Shown here: positions 41,276 to 47,624 of the stretch, one piece after another | Position numbering within the stretch: position 1 is the stretch's first letter | Layout: each line of letters begins with the position of its first letter | Assembly: GCA_012728975.1 (NCBI GenBank) | Contig: JAAYDZ010000030.1 | Span: forward strand, 1 to 47,624 | Direction: 5' to 3' | DNA: 47,624 nucleotides | Source of the DNA: Bacteroidales bacterium | Lineage (GTDB): Bacteria > Bacteroidota > Bacteroidia > Bacteroidales > UBA932 | The notes under the pieces: generated by a model | The model's database searches: none | Seen by the model: the letters and a program-made list of their open reading frames with translations, nothing else | What the model was told of the DNA's origin: nothing | Translations under genes and position numbers: made by a program

Positions 41276-42382
41276 TCACGATGCGAAAGCATCTACATAG
41301 GTTTTGATGTCACGCGGGCGACATAGGAACTCAACGGCCTCGCCTTGAAGCATGGTGCGGCGATTGTCATTCTCGGTCCAGTCAGTAGTATGGGAGGCAT
41401 ATTTAGTCACTCTGTTAAAGAGTTCCCAAACTTTCATGCTTGCCAACGCTTCCCTAGGCTTGAATCCATGCAAACCATAACCGGAGTTTAAATAAAAGTT
41501 CAGCTCCTCTTCATAAGGAGCAATATTATTCGATGACTCCTCCCCCACAGCAAATCGATCGAGCGTTTTCGAGACACAATGGAGTTCGCTTAAAGATGCT
41601 CTGGTATTCATTGCTGTCCGGGCCATATCGGCAAATTTACCGTATGATCTACTAAGCATACGGGTGTCTTGCGGAATGCTCAAGATCCCACGTATAGATT
41701 TGTCGTCCAAAACTGTAATCTTTGCTCTGGGAATGGAGATTTTTTCAATCATTCCATTGGCACAAATAAGACGTTCATAATACCTGTTCAATTGAATCTG
41801 TCCGAGATTCCACTTTAGAACATATGAGTTTATAAGCGTCTCTTCTCCCGGCGCAAAAGCTCTGATATCAGGAGTGTTGCTTCCCATATGTAAGATTATT
41901 CCGGCAGATGCATTGCCACCAATCTCATAAGCAGTTGGAGTGAGGTTGTTGTGATCCATAAAGATTTCAGCAAAATCAAAAAAGTTTTCCGAAGTAATGA
42001 GTTCCTCTTCTACAGGAATAACATTAACGATAGTCTTGCTCTCAGGATGCGCCACAAGAGCCACTTTGGTCGGATTTGCTATTGAACTGGCAGCAGCGAG
42101 ATAGTTGCGAAAATCACGTACACCCTCTTCACCGGTTGCCTTGGCGATAAAAGCCTGCTGATCTTTGGAGAATCCGGTGTATTTGTCTAAAGCTTCTGCT
42201 ACGAAGTCTGTAGCAAGGACATTCGTACCTTGAACGGAAAAAACATTTCTTCCTAAATATTCTGTTTCAGAAAGGTCATCAACGCGACCAATATACTTGA
42301 TTGTCGCACGATTGACCACCTTATATGGAAGCTGATTATCAGTAATCCGCCTACCTAGGGCTAAAAATTCTTGTTGTGTCAT
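41276..42382 (-). CDS. Protein of unknown function, partner of the RecA-like ATPase (possibly DUF932-like)
   Basis: The protein has 368 residues and no signal or membrane segment. The middle, about residues 155-230 (AGIILHMGSNTP ... LNRYYERLICANGMIEKIS), recalls the outline of DUF932-type phage/plasmid proteins, in which a beta-rich core is followed by a conserved R(L/V)(V/I)C-x-NGM segment. This is recognition by pattern only and may be wrong. It overlaps the ATPase gene by four bases (ATGA), so the two are translationally coupled and probably act together, most likely on nucleic acid. No terminator is obvious after it. Confidence 0.65.
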   Translation of the reverse strand: MTQQEFLALGRRITDNQLPYKVVNRATIKYIGRVDDLSETEYLGRNVFSVQGTNVLATDFVAEALDKYTGFSKDQQAFIAKATGEEGVRDFRNYLAAASSIANPTKVALVAHPESKTIVNVIPVEEELITSENFFDFAEIFMDHNNLTPTAYEIGGNASAGIILHMGSNTPDIRAFAPGEETLINSYVLKWNLGQIQLNRYYERLICANGMIEKISIPRAKITVLDDKSIRGILSIPQDTRMLSRSYGKFADMARTAMNTRASLSELHCVSKTLDRFAVGEESSNNIAPYEEELNFYLNSGYGLHGFKPREALASMKVWELFNRVTKYASHTTDWTENDNRRTMLQGEAVEFLCRPRDIKTYVDAFAS

Positions 42383-43248
42383 GGCTTGTTTACTTTAATG
42401 TTTTCAAATAGGATATCAAATTTGTCGGCATAGTTGCGCATACTTTTGCCGGCCTCAGACTGGAGTTGTCGGATCTGACGGTCCTGACTAAAACGATCTT
42501 CATTGTAAAAGACATCACCGGTCACGCTCAAATCATAGTAGAGACGCACACCCACATCTCCACGTCGATGCTTTGAGAATAGGGCATAGCGATCGGAATA
42601 GATGTTTTTAGGGTTCTCAAGGCGGAGCTCCATCATTGCAGTTATAGAGTGCTTAAGGCGGTTTGAGCCAATGAATGCGCCGGTCTTTGTAACCTGCTGA
42701 ATGGTGAGGAATGTCGTGTTTACTTGGGCATTGTTATCGGCTTTATTCTGCTGCTTGATAAGAGAAAGTAGCATACTCTCGGCTTTCTTCTGAGTAATGC
42801 CTTCTTCTTCCTTGATAATTCCCTGCAGTTCGTAAAATGAATCGATAGCCACTACATCCCAGCCTTGTTGGAGGATCTCCGTCAGAGTTTGTAGATTGTG
42901 AGAATCGATGTAATCATCAAAATTTGGCTCCACGAAAAGTATATCAATGTCCTGGAACTTCGGGAAACGCTGTACATAAATGGCGAGATCAATCTCGTTC
43001 ATCTCAGCACTAACGAAAAGAACCCTTACTTCCGGATGTTGTTTCCTTATATTTGACAAAAGGTCCAAAATAATAGTAGTCTTACCTACTCCGGGATCTC
43101 CGATAACCATATAATTCACCCCCTTCGGCAGTCCCTTGTAGCTGCAAAGCAATTCATCCAGCACAGTACCGGTCATATAGTTCTCAAAGAGGGCTGGATC
43201 AAAGCGTATATCCCTCATCCGAACAATTTTATCAGAAACACTTCCCAT
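42379..43248 (-). CDS. RecA-superfamily ATPase (RadA/DnaB-like P-loop protein)
   Basis: The protein has 289 residues from the ATG at 43248, which has an AAGGTGA ribosome binding site 5 bases before it; a GTG three codons upstream is also in frame. Walker A is GDPGVGKT (50-57). The following SAEMNEIDLAIYVQR (about 80-94) matches the SxEMS..Q...R helix of DnaB and RadA. Walker B is VVAIDS (Asp136), and TTFLTIQQVTKTGAFIGSNRLKHS resembles the motif 3 region of RadA/KaiC-type proteins. There is no zinc ribbon or Lon-like tail, so it is not RadA itself. It is divergent from the nuclease-like gene, with a palindrome between them. Confidence 0.82.
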   Translation of the reverse strand: MGSVSDKIVRMRDIRFDPALFENYMTGTVLDELLCSYKGLPKGVNYMVIGDPGVGKTTIILDLLSNIRKQHPEVRVLFVSAEMNEIDLAIYVQRFPKFQDIDILFVEPNFDDYIDSHNLQTLTEILQQGWDVVAIDSFYELQGIIKEEEGITQKKAESMLLSLIKQQNKADNNAQVNTTFLTIQQVTKTGAFIGSNRLKHSITAMMELRLENPKNIYSDRYALFSKHRRGDVGVRLYYDLSVTGDVFYNEDRFSQDRQIRQLQSEAGKSMRNYADKFDILFENIKVNKP

Positions 43249-43335
43249 GATACTCACCTTTTAATATTGCAAGTATCGCCCATCAAACTGCAATTTCTAG
43301 GCAGGAGCAGAACAAAATCGTCAAAATAATTCGCA

Positions 43336-43352
43336 CTGCCACTTTTTGGCAG
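43336..43352. promoter_or_regulatory. Palindrome CTGCC-N7-GGCAG, copy 1 (candidate operator)
   Basis: CTGCCACTTTTTGGCAG, identical in all 17 bases to 47061-47077. It lies between the divergent RecA-like and PD-(D/E)XK genes, 15 bases before the -33 box of the latter (TTTG at 43367). A GCAGTA word in the right arm (43349) recurs 21 bases on (43370), as it does at copy 2. Probably the binding site of a dimeric regulator. Confidence 0.65.
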
Positions 43353-43366
43353 TAAAGACTAGTTTA

Positions 43367-43397
43367 TTTGCAGTAATGAAAGAAAGAAGTAACTTTG
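43367..43397 (+). promoter_or_regulatory. Consensus promoter of the PD-(D/E)XK gene
   Basis: TTTG (43367-43370), exactly 19 bases, TAACTTTG (43390-43397): a perfect Bacteroidota promoter. The palindrome ends 14 bases before the -33 box, so a bound regulator could touch or block polymerase. Confidence 0.8.
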
Positions 43398-43446
43398 TTA
43401 GGCAGGCATTAAAATGATAAAAGATGATAATTTAAAAAAATAACTA

Positions 43447-44604
43447 ATGGATCAAATAAAGAATTTACTTAGTCAAGTATCGATTATCAGCAAGAAAAAT
43501 GCTGAAATATTAGATGCAACAGGAGGAAGATTTAATATGTTCCGAGTTTGCGGTGTAGATCATTACGAAAATACTCATTCGGCAATTCTCGCCGAATTCT
43601 TGAATCCAAATGGAACACACGGCTTGAAATCAAAATTTCTCGAGTGTTTTATTGAAACATTAGGCGAACAATTTGCCATTGAGGACTTCAACTGTAAAAA
43701 TGCGAGAGTTCATACAGAATTTGCAATCTCCGGAGGCCGGATTGATATTTTAATAGAAGATGAACAAAGGGAAAAAGCTATCATTATTGAAAACAAAATT
43801 TTTGCAGGCGACCAATGGAAACAACTAAAAAGATATGACGAATACGCAGAAAAAACATACAAAAATGACATTTATCAACTATTATATCTGACACTGGATG
43901 GCCATGAACCTACCAAACATAGCGGCAGTGGGGTCTCTTATTTGACAATTTCATATACAGAAACCATTATTAATTGGCTTGAAAAATGTGTTGCAATTGC
44001 TTCGCGTTTTCCAATGGTTCGAGAAACCATTATTCAATATATTAATCACCTGAAACAATTAACAAATCAAGATATGGATAACAAAAATAAAGAGGAGATA
44101 ACGGATCTTTTATCAAAAGTAGAGAACCTAAGAGCTGCCAAAGTAATTTGTCAACATTATTCAAAAACTTTTGATGCTATCATAGAGAAACACTTCAATC
44201 CTGAGATGAAGAAATTTGCAGAAAAACATAATTTAGAATATCAATACAGTGGAAGCGATGAGCAATCTGTGAGGTTTAATTTGATAAAACCTGACTGGAA
44301 GGGTAAATGTGCTATTTCATTTACGTTTGAAAAGGGTCACTTTCACTATGGATTATCCAATTATCTAAAAAAGTATAAACTTTCAAAAGATAATAGAGAG
44401 ACAATTCACAAAAGGTTGGAAGAAAAAGGAATTCAATCCCGTAAGCAAAGTGACTGGTGGCCTTTCTATGCTTATATAGACAACCTGAATATCAAGATCT
44501 GGGAAAGTGATATTATTACAAGTGACAAATTTCTAAAAGCTTGTATCGAAAAAATAAAAATCATCTTAGATGTTATGGAAGGCATAAAATTTGAAAAAGA
44601 ATGA
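43447..44604 (+). CDS. PD-(D/E)XK nuclease superfamily protein (PDDEXK_4 type)
   Basis: The protein has 385 residues. The N-terminal ENTHSAILAEFLNPNGTHG is the hallmark of the PDDEXK_4 family. The nuclease core GGRIDILI (Asp100) and IIIENK (Glu115, Lys117) gives the D...ExK triad, with a Gln-containing helix GDQWKQLKRY after it. The C-terminal half is a separate alpha/beta domain ending in WWPFYAYIDNLNIKIW. Members occur in defence islands and mobile DNA, but their substrates are mostly unproven. The gene is A+T-rich compared with glyA, with its own promoter and terminator, suggesting an acquired cassette. Confidence 0.85.
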   Translation: MDQIKNLLSQVSIISKKNAEILDATGGRFNMFRVCGVDHYENTHSAILAEFLNPNGTHGLKSKFLECFIETLGEQFAIEDFNCKNARVHTEFAISGGRIDILIEDEQREKAIIIENKIFAGDQWKQLKRYDEYAEKTYKNDIYQLLYLTLDGHEPTKHSGSGVSYLTISYTETIINWLEKCVAIASRFPMVRETIIQYINHLKQLTNQDMDNKNKEEITDLLSKVENLRAAKVICQHYSKTFDAIIEKHFNPEMKKFAEKHNLEYQYSGSDEQSVRFNLIKPDWKGKCAISFTFEKGHFHYGLSNYLKKYKLSKDNRETIHKRLEEKGIQSRKQSDWWPFYAYIDNLNIKIWESDIITSDKFLKACIEKIKIILDVMEGIKFEKE

Positions 44605-44779: not shown

Positions 44780-45031
44780 TTACAACGCCGGTGAGTGTCT
44801 GCCTTTGTTTGCTCCGTCCGGGTGGCGTAGGCAATAGGCTGATGTTAGGGAACGAAGATTGTTGAATTGTTGACCACAAAACTTACAGGTGTATTTGCTC
44901 TTCTCAGAACCTTCGTAAAGAGTGTGTTTCCCTTTGTTTGGACCGTCCGGATGTCTGATACAATAAGCAGAAGTTAATGTGCGCACATTGCCGAACTCTT
45001 GTCCGCAGTATTTACAATAAAATTTGGCCAT
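44780..45031 (-). CDS. Small protein with two tandem zinc-finger-like repeats
   Basis: The protein has 83 residues, almost entirely two copies of one 34-residue unit 43 residues apart. Each has C-x2-C-x14-C-x2-H-x8-H: Cys6, Cys9, Cys24, His27, His36 and Cys49, Cys52, Cys67, His70, His79. Conserved words are (Y/F)CGQ(E/Q)F, (T/S)LTSAYC(I/L)RHPDG and NKG(K/R)H. It most likely binds zinc, and perhaps nucleic acid, though this fold family has no function known to me. It stands alone on the minus strand between the nuclease and TA genes. A TATATTTG box (complement at 45071-45078) lies 40 bases before the start. Confidence 0.75.
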   Translation of the reverse strand: MAKFYCKYCGQEFGNVRTLTSAYCIRHPDGPNKGKHTLYEGSEKSKYTCKFCGQQFNNLRSLTSAYCLRHPDGANKGRHSPAL

Positions 45032-45240
45032 GGATGTAATTATTCATAGTTGAACCTTGAGGCTTACAAACAAATATAGTAATTTCTTTTCAAGCTGATA
45101 CCGCAAATCTATCTATCCCGGCTGCCAAAGTCCGGCACTATTTATAATATTACAATCAATTTTTGCTTCATAAATTATTAATTTGATTCCCTTGATTATT
45201 GCTTTAGAGTGTTGATTTGAATAATAAAAAATTCAGCAAG

Positions 45241-45305: not shown

Positions 45306-45785
45306 ATGAACTTTGAGATTGTTGAAATAGAAGAATTCTCCGGTGATAAAGCAAAGATTTATTCCATAATGCTTGAGGGTGATGATGATACTTTGTTAGA
45401 CCAATTCTTTGATGAAAATCAACAATATGAGGAGGAGTTGGAAGAAATCGCTGCAAGGCTGCTGGCCATGGGCAGTTCTACCGGTTGTCGAATTCAATTT
45501 TTCAAAGAACATGAAGGTGCACCGGGAGACGGAGTTGTTGCTCTATGGTATAAAAGGATGCGACTTTATTGTCTGAGATTTGACAACACATGTATATTCA
45601 TTGGTTCAGGAGGATATAAACCACCGGATATTTCGGCATATCAAGAGAATCCTTTGTTAAACGCAAAAGCCCAACAAATGAGAACCATTGCAGCAAGTAT
45701 AAACAAAGCCATAATAGAAAAAGACCTCAAAGTCTTCGAAGACGGGACATTAGAAAAATCAGACTTTTTAAACCTTGAGATATGA
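45306..45785 (+). CDS. RelE/HigB-like toxin of a three-gene TA system
   Basis: The protein has 159 residues. The C-terminal part (about 65-140: RIQFFKEHEG ... GVVALWYKRMRLYCLRFDN ... IFIGSGGYKPP ... YQENPLL) follows the RelE/ParE fold pattern of strands with basic and aromatic residues, as in HigB-type mRNA interferases. The acidic N-terminal 60 residues are an extension. It overlaps the next gene by four bases (ATGA). Toxin-first order with an HTH antitoxin is the HigBA arrangement. Toxicity and ribosome-dependent cleavage are inferred, not shown. Confidence 0.75.
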   Translation: MNFEIVEIEEFSGDKAKIYSIMLEGDDDTLLDQFFDENQQYEEELEEIAARLLAMGSSTGCRIQFFKEHEGAPGDGVVALWYKRMRLYCLRFDNTCIFIGSGGYKPPDISAYQENPLLNAKAQQMRTIAASINKAIIEKDLKVFEDGTLEKSDFLNLEI

Positions 45786-46216
45786 CAACAAGAAGAAAAC
45801 CATCCAAAGTATTAACAAAGATTCTTGCGTCAATAGATGAAGATAAACTTCGTCGCACAAGAGAAAGAATGCTTGTTGCCTGCAAAATAGCAGACACGTT
45901 AGAAGTTAAAGGACTTACACAGAAGGAATTTGCTAAGATGCTCGGCAAAAGCGAATCAGAAATTTCCGAGTTACTTTCCGGAAACAGAAATTTCACATTT
46001 GACACGCTTTCAGATATGGCCCATTGCTTGGGCATAGATCTCTTTCCATTGTCATTTATTCCAACGAAGAGAGTCACAAAGGAAGATACTGAAATCAAGT
46101 TGTCTAAAACAAGGAAGTCTGGCATCTATGATATGGGAGAAGTTTACACCATATCACAGTCATTTGGAGCTTGGCGAACATATCCGACATCATCTTGTTT
46201 GTCATTAGCAATTTAA
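45782..46216 (+). CDS. HTH (XRE-type) antitoxin, HigA-like, with C-terminal extension
   Basis: The protein has 144 residues. A helix-turn-helix lies at about 45-86 (LTQKEFAKMLGKSESEISELLSG), the core of HigA-type antitoxins that bind the toxin and the operon promoter. After it comes a tail of about 50 residues, with aromatic and hydrophobic residues near the end (IYDMGEVYTISQSFGAWRTY). In TAC systems the antitoxin carries just such a chaperone-addiction tail, recognised by the SecB-like partner. The start overlaps the toxin stop, and the stop is 11 bases before the SecB-like ATG. Confidence 0.82.
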   Translation: MTTRRKPSKVLTKILASIDEDKLRRTRERMLVACKIADTLEVKGLTQKEFAKMLGKSESEISELLSGNRNFTFDTLSDMAHCLGIDLFPLSFIPTKRVTKEDTEIKLSKTRKSGIYDMGEVYTISQSFGAWRTYPTSSCLSLAI

Positions 46217-46227
46217 AACTTTGGAGT

Positions 46228-46653
46228 ATGGAAATAAAATATAAACTACAATCGATTGCCGAAACAGAGTTTAAGATTAACTATGAGTTCGACTACTCGG
46301 GCTTAAAACGTGACAAATTACAAATCCAAGTGGGGCACGAAATAACCCCCGTTATGGATGGTGATAAAATTGTCATTAAAGCAAAAGTCACCATTTTATA
46401 CGAGGATGGCTGGATAATACTTGCCACAAACACGATTCTAATGACCTTCGGCCTTTCTCCTATCAAGGATGTGATTACAGTAAAAGGAGATGGAACATTT
46501 ATAGCTAAAAACCATTTAATAATTGACACATTCCTCGGTGCTGCAATAGGTGCTCTACGCGGTATTTTTATGAAGAACCTCAAGGGTTCTCCACTCGAAA
46601 ATTGTTATATTCCGCTTATACCCCTTGAGAGTGTCCGTCCAAAAAAGAAATAA
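46228..46653 (+). CDS. SecB-like chaperone, third member of a toxin-antitoxin-chaperone operon
   Basis: The protein has 141 residues from the ATG at 46228; an in-frame ATG at 46171 would overlap the antitoxin by 46 bases and adds an unlikely hydrophobic stretch. The layout matches SecB: strands at about 1-60 (VKVTILYEDG-like segment at KAKVTILYEDGW), a hydrophobic strand and a loop, then helices with GAAIGALRGIFMKNLKGSPLE and the terminal IPLIPLESV, which lines up with the helix and LAPVNFDAL end of E. coli SecB. Sequence identity with SecB is low, as usual for TA-linked SecB proteins. Its place right after a HigBA pair is the strongest support. Confidence 0.7.
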   Translation: MEIKYKLQSIAETEFKINYEFDYSGLKRDKLQIQVGHEITPVMDGDKIVIKAKVTILYEDGWIILATNTILMTFGLSPIKDVITVKGDGTFIAKNHLIIDTFLGAAIGALRGIFMKNLKGSPLENCYIPLIPLESVRPKKK

Positions 46654-47058: not shown

Positions 47059-47190
47059 TACTGCCACTTTTTGGCAGCGTGATTTATTTTCTTTGCATTA
47101 ATAAAAAGATAATCATTGCAGTAATGAGAGAAGAATATTTGCAGTAGTGAAAAAAGAGTTCATGCAGTAGTTAATAAAATCCTGGCAGTA
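47059..47190. promoter_or_regulatory. Palindrome copy 2 plus array of GCAGTA half-sites (candidate operator array)
   Basis: The palindrome CTGCCACTTTTTGGCAG (47061-47077) begins the array; its left arm in context reads TACTGC (GCAGTA on the minus strand). Plus-strand half-sites then start at 47074 (GCAGCG), 47095 (GCATTA), 47118, 47141, 47164 and 47185 (all GCAGTA). Steps are 21, 23, 23, 23 and 21 bases, about two helical turns each, so all face the same way. Flanks are partly conserved too: TTGCAGTARTGA followed by A/G-rich sequence. The last site is 20 bases before the ribosome binding site of the next gene. Confidence 0.7.
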
Positions 47191-47215: not shown

Positions 47216-47624
47216 ATGGAAAAGAAAAAATCTACAAGAGAAATTCTCGCGAGTATGCTTGAGTGTGAAAATTTGATTGATGATTTGGGACTTGAGTTGA
47301 AAAAGAAAAGTCTGTTGGAGTGTTTTGAGGAGGTAATTGAGAGGGCGCGAAAGAATAGGGAGTTTGGTCGGGAGTATGATGAGTACTTCTGTCTCAACGA
47401 TAAACTAATTGCTGCTAAACGCTTCGAGTTGGAGACGATTGCAGAAGAATATGGAATCAGCGAGTGGCAGGCGGCTTTGTTTGCTATTGTGATTGAGCTA
47501 TGTAAGGGAGATGATGTGAATCAGAGGAGACTTGCCGAACAGCTCAAAACAAGTTTCGTCTCATTTCTCTCATTAGAGAAGGATCTGCTTGAGCTTGAGA
47601 AGCTGCGTTTAATTAAAAGAAACA
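47216..47624 (+). CDS. N-terminal part of a probable AAA-type ATPase with winged-helix domain (runs off the end)
   Basis: 136 codons are open from the ATG at 47216 to the window end with no stop. The start MEKKKSTREILASMLE leads into acidic helices (NLIDDLGLELKKKSLLECFEE), followed at about 75-135 by a winged-helix-like region (GISEWQAALFAIVIELCKGD, RRLAEQLKTSF, LLELEKLRLIKR). This N-terminus resembles that of large Bacteroidales ATP-binding proteins with an AAA domain further on. The P-loop is not within the window, so the ATPase part is inference. It is preceded by the palindrome/GCAGTA array and a strong ribosome binding site. The gene is divergent from the 52-residue gene. Confidence 0.6.
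   Translation, partial: MEKKKSTREILASMLECENLIDDLGLELKKKSLLECFEEVIERARKNREFGREYDEYFCLNDKLIAAKRFELETIAEEYGISEWQAALFAIVIELCKGDDVNQRRLAEQLKTSFVSFLSLEKDLLELEKLRLIKRN

Follow-up and report, generated by a model that had tools for sequence, protein, structure and literature searches.

A repeated palindrome before defence-like genes of Bacteroidales as the putative operator of a WYL-family regulator

The window analysed here is a whole stretch of DNA of 47,624 nucleotides, which makes up the entire contig C19 of a Bacteroidales genome and ends within an AAA ATPase gene. It carries the palindrome CTGCCACTTTTTGGCAG in two exact copies, at 43336-43352(+) and 47061-47077(+), just as the first-pass annotation had claimed, one before a PD-(D/E)XK nuclease gene and the other before the AAA gene. 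This arrangement raises the question of whether the two copies place separate genes under one regulator, and of which protein would bind them. Comparison with related genomes points to an answer: a WYL-family regulator most likely binds the repeated palindrome and controls several phage-defence-like genes in Bacteroidales. The features of the window are as follows.

41276..42382, minus strand: 368-aa partner gene, overlapping the end of the RecA-like gene; no family in Pfam or NCBIfam
42379..43248, minus strand: RadA/RecA/KaiC-like ATPase gene, 289 aa from ATG; Pfam AAA_25 1.6e-06
43270-43277, minus strand: −7-like element GATACTTG of the RecA-like gene; 4/6
43288..43304, minus strand: putative weak operator CTGCCTAGAAATTGCAG of the RecA-like gene; 10/17, 56 bases before ATG
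43336..43352, plus strand: putative WYL-type operator CTGCCACTTTTTGGCAG of the PD-(D/E)XK gene; exact 17-mer
43363..43370, plus strand: −7 box TTTATTTG of the PD-(D/E)XK gene; 5/6 to TAnnTTTG, 10 bases past the operator
43447..44604, plus strand: PD-(D/E)XK nuclease gene, 385 aa; Pfam PDDEXK_4 3.2e-39, PADLOC PDC-S26 1.9e-104
44780..45031, minus strand: gene for a small zinc-finger-like protein, 83 aa; 107 bases downstream of the GTGCCGGACTTTGGCAG operator
45104-45111, minus strand: −7 box TAGATTTG of the zinc-finger gene's operator
45122..45138, minus strand: putative weaker operator GTGCCGGACTTTGGCAG of the zinc-finger gene; composite motif with 0 mismatches, 12/17 to the reference palindrome
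47061..47077, plus strand: putative WYL-type operator CTGCCACTTTTTGGCAG of the AAA ATPase gene; exact 17-mer
47088..47095, plus strand: −7 box TTTCTTTG of the AAA gene; 5/6, 10 bases past the operator
47216..47624, plus strand: AAA ATPase gene, first 136 codons, the rest cut off by the contig end; residues 1-136 are 95% identical to the 600-aa AAA protein of G019

The palindrome and its neighbourhood

The two copies in the window compare with an expectation of 0.10 from dinucleotide shuffles, and none of 100 shuffles reaches two. A third match is absent from the window even when up to three mismatches are allowed. The genome-wide motif search proposed earlier, run on the assembly of this genome (1.83 Mb, 76 contigs, 90.55% complete), returns the same two exact copies, both upstream of genes, and no further match with up to two mismatches; the reversed-pattern control gives 0. 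Taken alone, the looser form CTGCCAN5TGGCAG is a weak signal. With two mismatches it has 74 occurrences in this genome (control, 34), and a search of 100 genomes finds it in 24 of them, at 33 places, where the reversed control has 11. Eleven of these 33 places were traced to the WYL-AAA module described below, and two (L103, L104) lie inside long open frames.

A scan of 84,980 species for the exact palindrome yields 57 stretches. In ten of them, all from Bacteroidota, the gene behind the palindrome encodes a WYL regulator or an AAA ATPase; one of these (L059) has the AAA N-terminus only, 40% identical to that of G039. The remaining 47, taken without gene-by-gene annotation, come from many phyla; some are copies repeated locally within a single Elusimicrobia genome or a single Spirochaeta genome, and the Bacteroidota stretch L046 also has TTTG at +31 but a different gene downstream. 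Within the genus, the exact palindrome is present in G016, G019, G037, G038, G039, and G005, and both G019 and G038 carry two copies on the same strand, approximately 1.9 kb apart.

The sites of the window are kept in these relatives. The operator of the nuclease gene recurs at the orthologues with two mismatches in G016 and one in G005, while that of the AAA gene is identical in six aligned genomes (this one included), with diverged DNA immediately upstream in G019. The weaker operator GTGCCGGACTTTGGCAG is kept in G038 with the same gene downstream. The 83-aa protein encoded there has Pfam zinc-finger matches, every one below cutoff. An element resembling this operator is located in G005 before a different, 247-aa gene (L102 4780(-)).

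NCBIfam assigns no family to the PD-(D/E)XK nuclease. In two orthologues the nuclease starts eleven codons earlier (window 43414-43446); in the window an in-frame stop follows that earlier start, which would put the beginning of the gene at 43447. Degenerate repeats of about 23 bases resembling TTGCAGTAATGA are present in the AAA gene's leader (window 47095-47190) and are more numerous in G037 (L098 5123-5230); the insert is missing from four other aligned relatives. For this leader, Tandem Repeats Finder reports an array in G037 and none in the window. In addition, three overlapping genes at 45306-46653 correspond to the PADLOC candidate PDC-M64 (B 2.5e-36, C 1.3e-21, C 7.6e-08), a trio that we take to resemble a toxin-antitoxin-chaperone set and for which no operator of its own was found.

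Promoter geometry

TTTGCA starts 31 bases from the palindrome start at both sites, as had been noted before. The shared TTTG had been taken for a −33 box; offsets and alignments point instead to a −7 box, TAnnTTTG. The geometry was assessed on 31 sites from 16 WYL-linked stretches, chosen by the palindrome alone (at most two mismatches). The set includes orthologues from close relatives, with L042, L051, L060, L065, L066, and L067 counted once with G005, G016, G019, G038, G037, and G039, and the sites are not mutually independent because many are such orthologues. A −7 box (at least 5/6 to TAnnTTTG) is located at offset exactly +27, that is 10 bases past the palindrome, in 27 of the 31 sites, and at any other offset in at most three; TTTG stands at +31 in 25. 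The spacers between palindrome and −7 box comprise 26 distinct sequences with a mean pairwise identity of 0.32. Among 38 control palindromes, from other loci of the species-wide scan, two have a −7 box at +27.

With the last base of the box set at −7, the palindrome spans about −41 to −25, which is the −33 region. A TTG at a gap of 19-21 before TAnnTTTG is present in 18 of 58 ordinary promoters vs none of 14 operator promoters (p 0.015, on small numbers). We assign the TTTG at +31 to the −7 box because the +27 offset is fixed and the −33 TTG at the usual gap is absent. In ten of the 14 operator promoters a TTTG precedes the −7 box at a gap of 14; it belongs to the palindrome, so that an oddly spaced −33-like element is possible. 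The main −7 boxes of the window are imperfect, matching 5/6 at the nuclease and AAA genes and 4/6 at the RecA-like gene. Four of the 31 sites lie inside open frames of at least 150 codons, which, judged by coordinates, are taken to be antisense or upstream extensions of target genes.

Two promoter assignments of the first-pass annotation stand in part. The "perfect" nuclease promoter TTTG-N19-TAACTTTG is indeed present at 43367-43397 and kept in G005, but in G016 the −7 half is disrupted (TACCTTGG); this promoter may serve as an additional start. TTTnTTTG at +27 of the nuclease site is kept in this genome and in both orthologues (G016, G005). It is also true that the divergent RecA-like gene has the palindrome at 43336 on its 5' side. 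The right geometry for this gene, however, belongs to the weaker site at 43304-43288(-), and the gene most likely uses this site of its own, 56 bases from the ATG, and not that of the nuclease. The weak site CTGCCTAGAAATTGCAG is missed by the composite-motif search (see below) with up to two mismatches. It is kept in G005 (L102 1756-), and a clearer site, CTGCTGTTTTTTGGCAT..TATCTTTG, is found in G039, 70 bases before a 77% identical RecA-like gene (L198 9585+) that is followed by a 44% identical partner gene beside WYL-AAA. The RadA/RecA/KaiC-like protein itself matches NCBIfam RadA at 3.7e-08, under that family's cutoff.

WYL genes and the extent of the probable regulon

In relatives, the same or a near-same palindrome precedes genes for WYL/WCX regulators, AAA ATPases, PD-(D/E)XK nucleases, and DEDDh exonucleases. 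In G019, G037, and G038 these form a module with the order site, AAA ATPase (594-600 aa), site, WYL/WCX regulator (301 aa), DEDDh exonuclease (164 aa), the exonuclease gene of G038 being truncated at the contig end; G016 has AAA and WYL genes with no adjoining exonuclease. Variants occur in Rikenellaceae (L063; site-WYL-GmrSD-GmrSD-exonuclease) and Lentimicrobiaceae (L082; site-WYL-site-AAA-exonuclease), with the exonuclease assigned by eye in both. The 600-aa AAA protein of G019 matches Pfam AAA at 1.1e-22 and PADLOC IetA at 1.8e-32, and we do not file the AAA proteins as IetA because they score far under the NCBIfam cutoff (102.8 of 510 bits). Directly 5' of the WYL gene's own site, G019, G037, and G038 carry a second, inverted palindrome with two mismatches (L098 3235, L099 1365, L100 6318), which suggests a double autoregulatory site at the WYL gene.

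This genome holds a single WYL match of this kind (E 0.001 or better), at C44:3-755, which encodes residues 51-301 and is 98% identical to that of G019. The exonuclease gene that follows it on C44 is 90% identical to its G019 counterpart. On the strength of this G019-like gene order, we take C44 as the continuation of C19, and the rest of the AAA gene, a third site predicted some 58 bases ahead of the WYL start, and the start of the WYL gene itself would fall in the assembly gap.

The extent of the regulon was assessed with the composite motif TGCYRN3TTTGGCAN11TANNTTTG and its reversed pattern as control. With up to two mismatches, 40 genomes of the genus contain 54 matches against 3 for the control. 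The 31 matches with at most one mismatch comprise 25 on a WYL contig, three in the window, one in G005, on a contig that, like the window, is cut off within the AAA gene, and two elsewhere; they occur in 11 of 19 WYL-positive genomes vs none of 21 WYL-negative ones (p 3e-5). This genome has three matches with up to two mismatches, all in the window: at the nuclease gene, at the AAA gene and, with 0 mismatches, at the zinc-finger gene.

The association extends across the order. Among 393 Bacteroidales genomes, matches with at most one mismatch are present in 31 of 69 WYL-positive genomes vs 28 of 324 others (p 1e-11), compared with 4 of 69 and 17 of 324 for the reversed control (p 0.77). WYL-positive here means E 1e-50 or better, with weaker WYL genes counted as negative, and the 28 WYL-negative genomes with a match exceed the control's 17. 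Of the 52 matches in WYL-positive genomes (this one excluded), 24 have a WYL gene no more than 15 kb away, where a rough estimate of the expected number gives about 0.7, and 28 do not. The strict pattern occurs in 6 of the 393 genomes against 1 for the control, and on the WYL-gene contig in G231 and G209 alone besides this genome.

Sites also precede the WYL genes themselves. Upstream of 22 of 42 WYL genes there is a site, for each of which none of 100 shuffles is as good, and the other 20 genes of this wider family are without one. The count includes L086, L082, and L063, which were found via the palindrome (19 of 39 without them), and excludes L121, which has just 30 bases upstream. Its order-wide loci are the best 30 WYL matches, with 29 used, less L173 (this genome's, cut), L177, L179, L187, L190, L192, and L193; the upstream DNA of the last six has no clear site. 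At the 22 genes the distance between palindrome start and start codon is 44-64 bases, apart from two genes with 78 and 93. The closer a WYL protein is to the reference in identity, the higher its upstream motif scores (Spearman 0.67, 42 genes, kinship uncorrected). On a tree of 43 WYL proteins, motif presence (42 rows) needs 6 changes vs 14.4 with shuffled labels (0/500 as low), a clustering that close relatives alone would also give.

Moreover, in relatives the motif is followed by genes for GmrSD, MoxR-type AAA, and DUF6140 proteins (0-1 mismatch) and for GyrB-like and FtsZ-like proteins (2 mismatches). In G209 there are three CTGCCAN5TGGCAG copies with AGGTC downstream (L200 9882, 11043, 15129), one of them before an FtsZ-like gene; these may represent a related but different site. 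The earlier idea of one regulon agrees well with these results: in relatives, the same genes as well as WYL genes are preceded by the site, which keeps a fixed distance to a promoter element and is statistically associated with WYL genes. Judged from these comparisons, a regulon shared through the palindrome is very probable.

Proposed regulator and mechanism, and known WYL systems

The WYL protein matches Pfam WYL (6.5e-14) and WCX (1.3e-08), with no Pfam HTH matched and no NCBIfam family assigned. Its AlphaFold2 model (mean pLDDT 83) has a helical N-terminus, and the alignments to DriD and PafBC cover 294-341 columns. The protein thus belongs to class A (HTH-WYL-WCX), with WYL and WCX after an N-terminal DNA-binding domain. 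The available parts of an earlier paper describe this class as prominent in Bacteroidetes (PMC6789036). A profile of 43 WYL proteins matches PafBC best (1.3e-18), followed by DriD (3.7e-16), with two CapW entries at 6e-4 and 1e-3 and no BrxR row at 0.001. In the fold search DriD occupies ranks 1-8 (6.8e-13 down), PafBC rank 9, CapW rank 16, and BrxR rank 20, in a comparison based on a monomer model with TM-scores near 0.54 and large rmsd.

Promoter geometry, sites before WYL genes, and fold together fit a DriD-type WYL activator. We consider it reasonably likely that a WYL/WCX regulator encoded beyond the contig end binds the palindrome and activates the nuclease and ATPase genes in the manner of DriD. 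A WYL/WCX homodimer would sit around the place of sigma domain 4 and recruit polymerase to promoters that lack a −33 box, the palindrome taking over the position of this box exactly 10 bases from TAnnTTTG. The regulator would thereby switch on its own gene together with a set of nuclease and ATPase genes. The probable trigger would be single-stranded DNA arising during DNA damage or phage attack, a signal that we infer by analogy with DriD, PafBC, and SiwR; the defence role is likewise a putative one.

The same regulon and regulator could also work in the opposite sense, with the WYL protein covering the −33 region until a ligand releases it. CapW and BrxR, WYL regulators of phage-defence genes, are described as repressors in the accessible text of the reports (PMC9122588, PMC9122601); the site here overlaps the promoter region, a second inverted site precedes the WYL gene's site in G019, G037, and G038 as in some autoregulated genes, and the fixed spacing would also suit a repressor lying over the polymerase site. 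However, there is one exact spacing here, and the −33 box at the usual gap is not kept. Activation is favoured because DriD and PafBC, both activators, lead the fold and profile ranks, and because, as far as the accessible text goes, CapW sites overlap the −10 element and BrxR repeats follow the predicted −10, whereas the present site is upstream of the −7 box. Repression is thus unlikely, though a reading to be kept in mind.

Fixed spacing between an upstream element and the −7 box would also be given by an alternative sigma factor (ECF or sigma54-like) acting at these promoters in place of a WYL site, and TTTGGCAc resembles a sigma54 −24 element. This is improbable, since the upstream element is an inverted repeat, site occurrence tracks WYL genes, and the −7 box TAnnTTTG belongs to the housekeeping sigma according to the portion available of PMC7366714. 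We give still less credence to promoters copied within a mobile cassette, whose identity would reflect recent origin and not regulation: the genes do lie in a variable island, several in differing combinations, but the spacers differ among sites (mean identity 0.32), and the palindrome and −7 box are kept despite diverged upstream DNA in G016 (nuclease) and G019 (AAA). Chance or a dispersed repeat (REP, MITE) is hardly credible; exact 17-mers do occur in unrelated phyla too, but this genome has just two copies, both 5' of genes, the control counts (shuffles, reversed motifs) are low, and the association of motif and WYL genes holds genus- and order-wide. The chance, REP/MITE, and promoter-copy readings were set aside on shuffles, own-genome counts, reversed controls, spacers, and orthologue alignments.

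What appears new here is the putative grouping of several defence-like genes of Bacteroidales in one WYL regulon whose promoters resemble those of DriD in geometry. In the accessible open-access literature searched, we found no description of a comparable regulon from Bacteroidetes. A regulon of this kind would bear on the joint switching of the genes in a defence island, BrxR and CapW being WYL repressors as far as their accessible reports go. The motif TGCYR-N3-TTTGGCA-N11-TAnnTTTG predicts regulon members across Bacteroidales, including unknown genes, and the DriD-type activation preferred here predicts that a WYL protein activates promoters without a −33 box. More tentatively, with somewhat less than even confidence, Bacteroidales may possess a LexA-independent regulon triggered by single-stranded DNA, in which a DriD-type WYL activator would replace −33 recognition by the unusual Bacteroidota sigma and switch on nucleases, AAA ATPases, a RadA-like pair, GmrSD, and even a GyrB-like protein together upon phage attack or damage.

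Three groups of WYL regulators, known to us from the accessible parts of the sources, invite comparison. BrxR and CapW resemble the present system in being encoded beside phage-defence genes and in having palindromic or inverted-repeat binding sites within the promoter region. Both differ from it in being repressors with sites over or downstream of the −10 element, whereas here 10 bases separate the end of the site from the −7 box downstream, and in their weaker fold and profile match to the WYL protein. In the part of the BrxR report available, 338 of 347 BrxR homologues are from Proteobacteria, and Bacteroidetes are not mentioned (PMC9122601). The mycobacterial PafBC and SiwR are WYL activators that act near the −26 or −35 region by sigma adaptation (PMC11804915, PMC10693628). 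PafBC is a PafB-PafC heterodimer, whereas here there is one gene and a symmetric site; in L097-L100 a single WYL gene follows the AAA gene, with no tandem or fused pafB-pafC pair.

DriD of Caulobacter crescentus is a WYL activator of a LexA-independent DNA-damage response (PMC12340889, preprint). Its site, ATACGAC-N7-GTCGTAT, differs from the CTGCCA-N5-TGGCAG found here, and because of this different consensus we do not file the WYL protein as a DriD orthologue. The present system also belongs to another phylum, uses the −7 box TAnnTTTG, and has its targets grouped in an island of defence-like genes. The likeness lies in the WYL/WCX-type protein, for which DriD is the best PDB match by fold, and in the promoter. 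DriD binds a pseudo-palindrome over the −35 region at one distance from −10, with a poor −35 element (PMC12340889), in line with the 27 of 31 sites at +27 and the 0 of 14 operator promoters with TTG. Moreover, DriD has a site before its own gene, as do 22 of the 42 WYL genes here, and its targets include endonuclease and exonuclease genes (PMC12340889).
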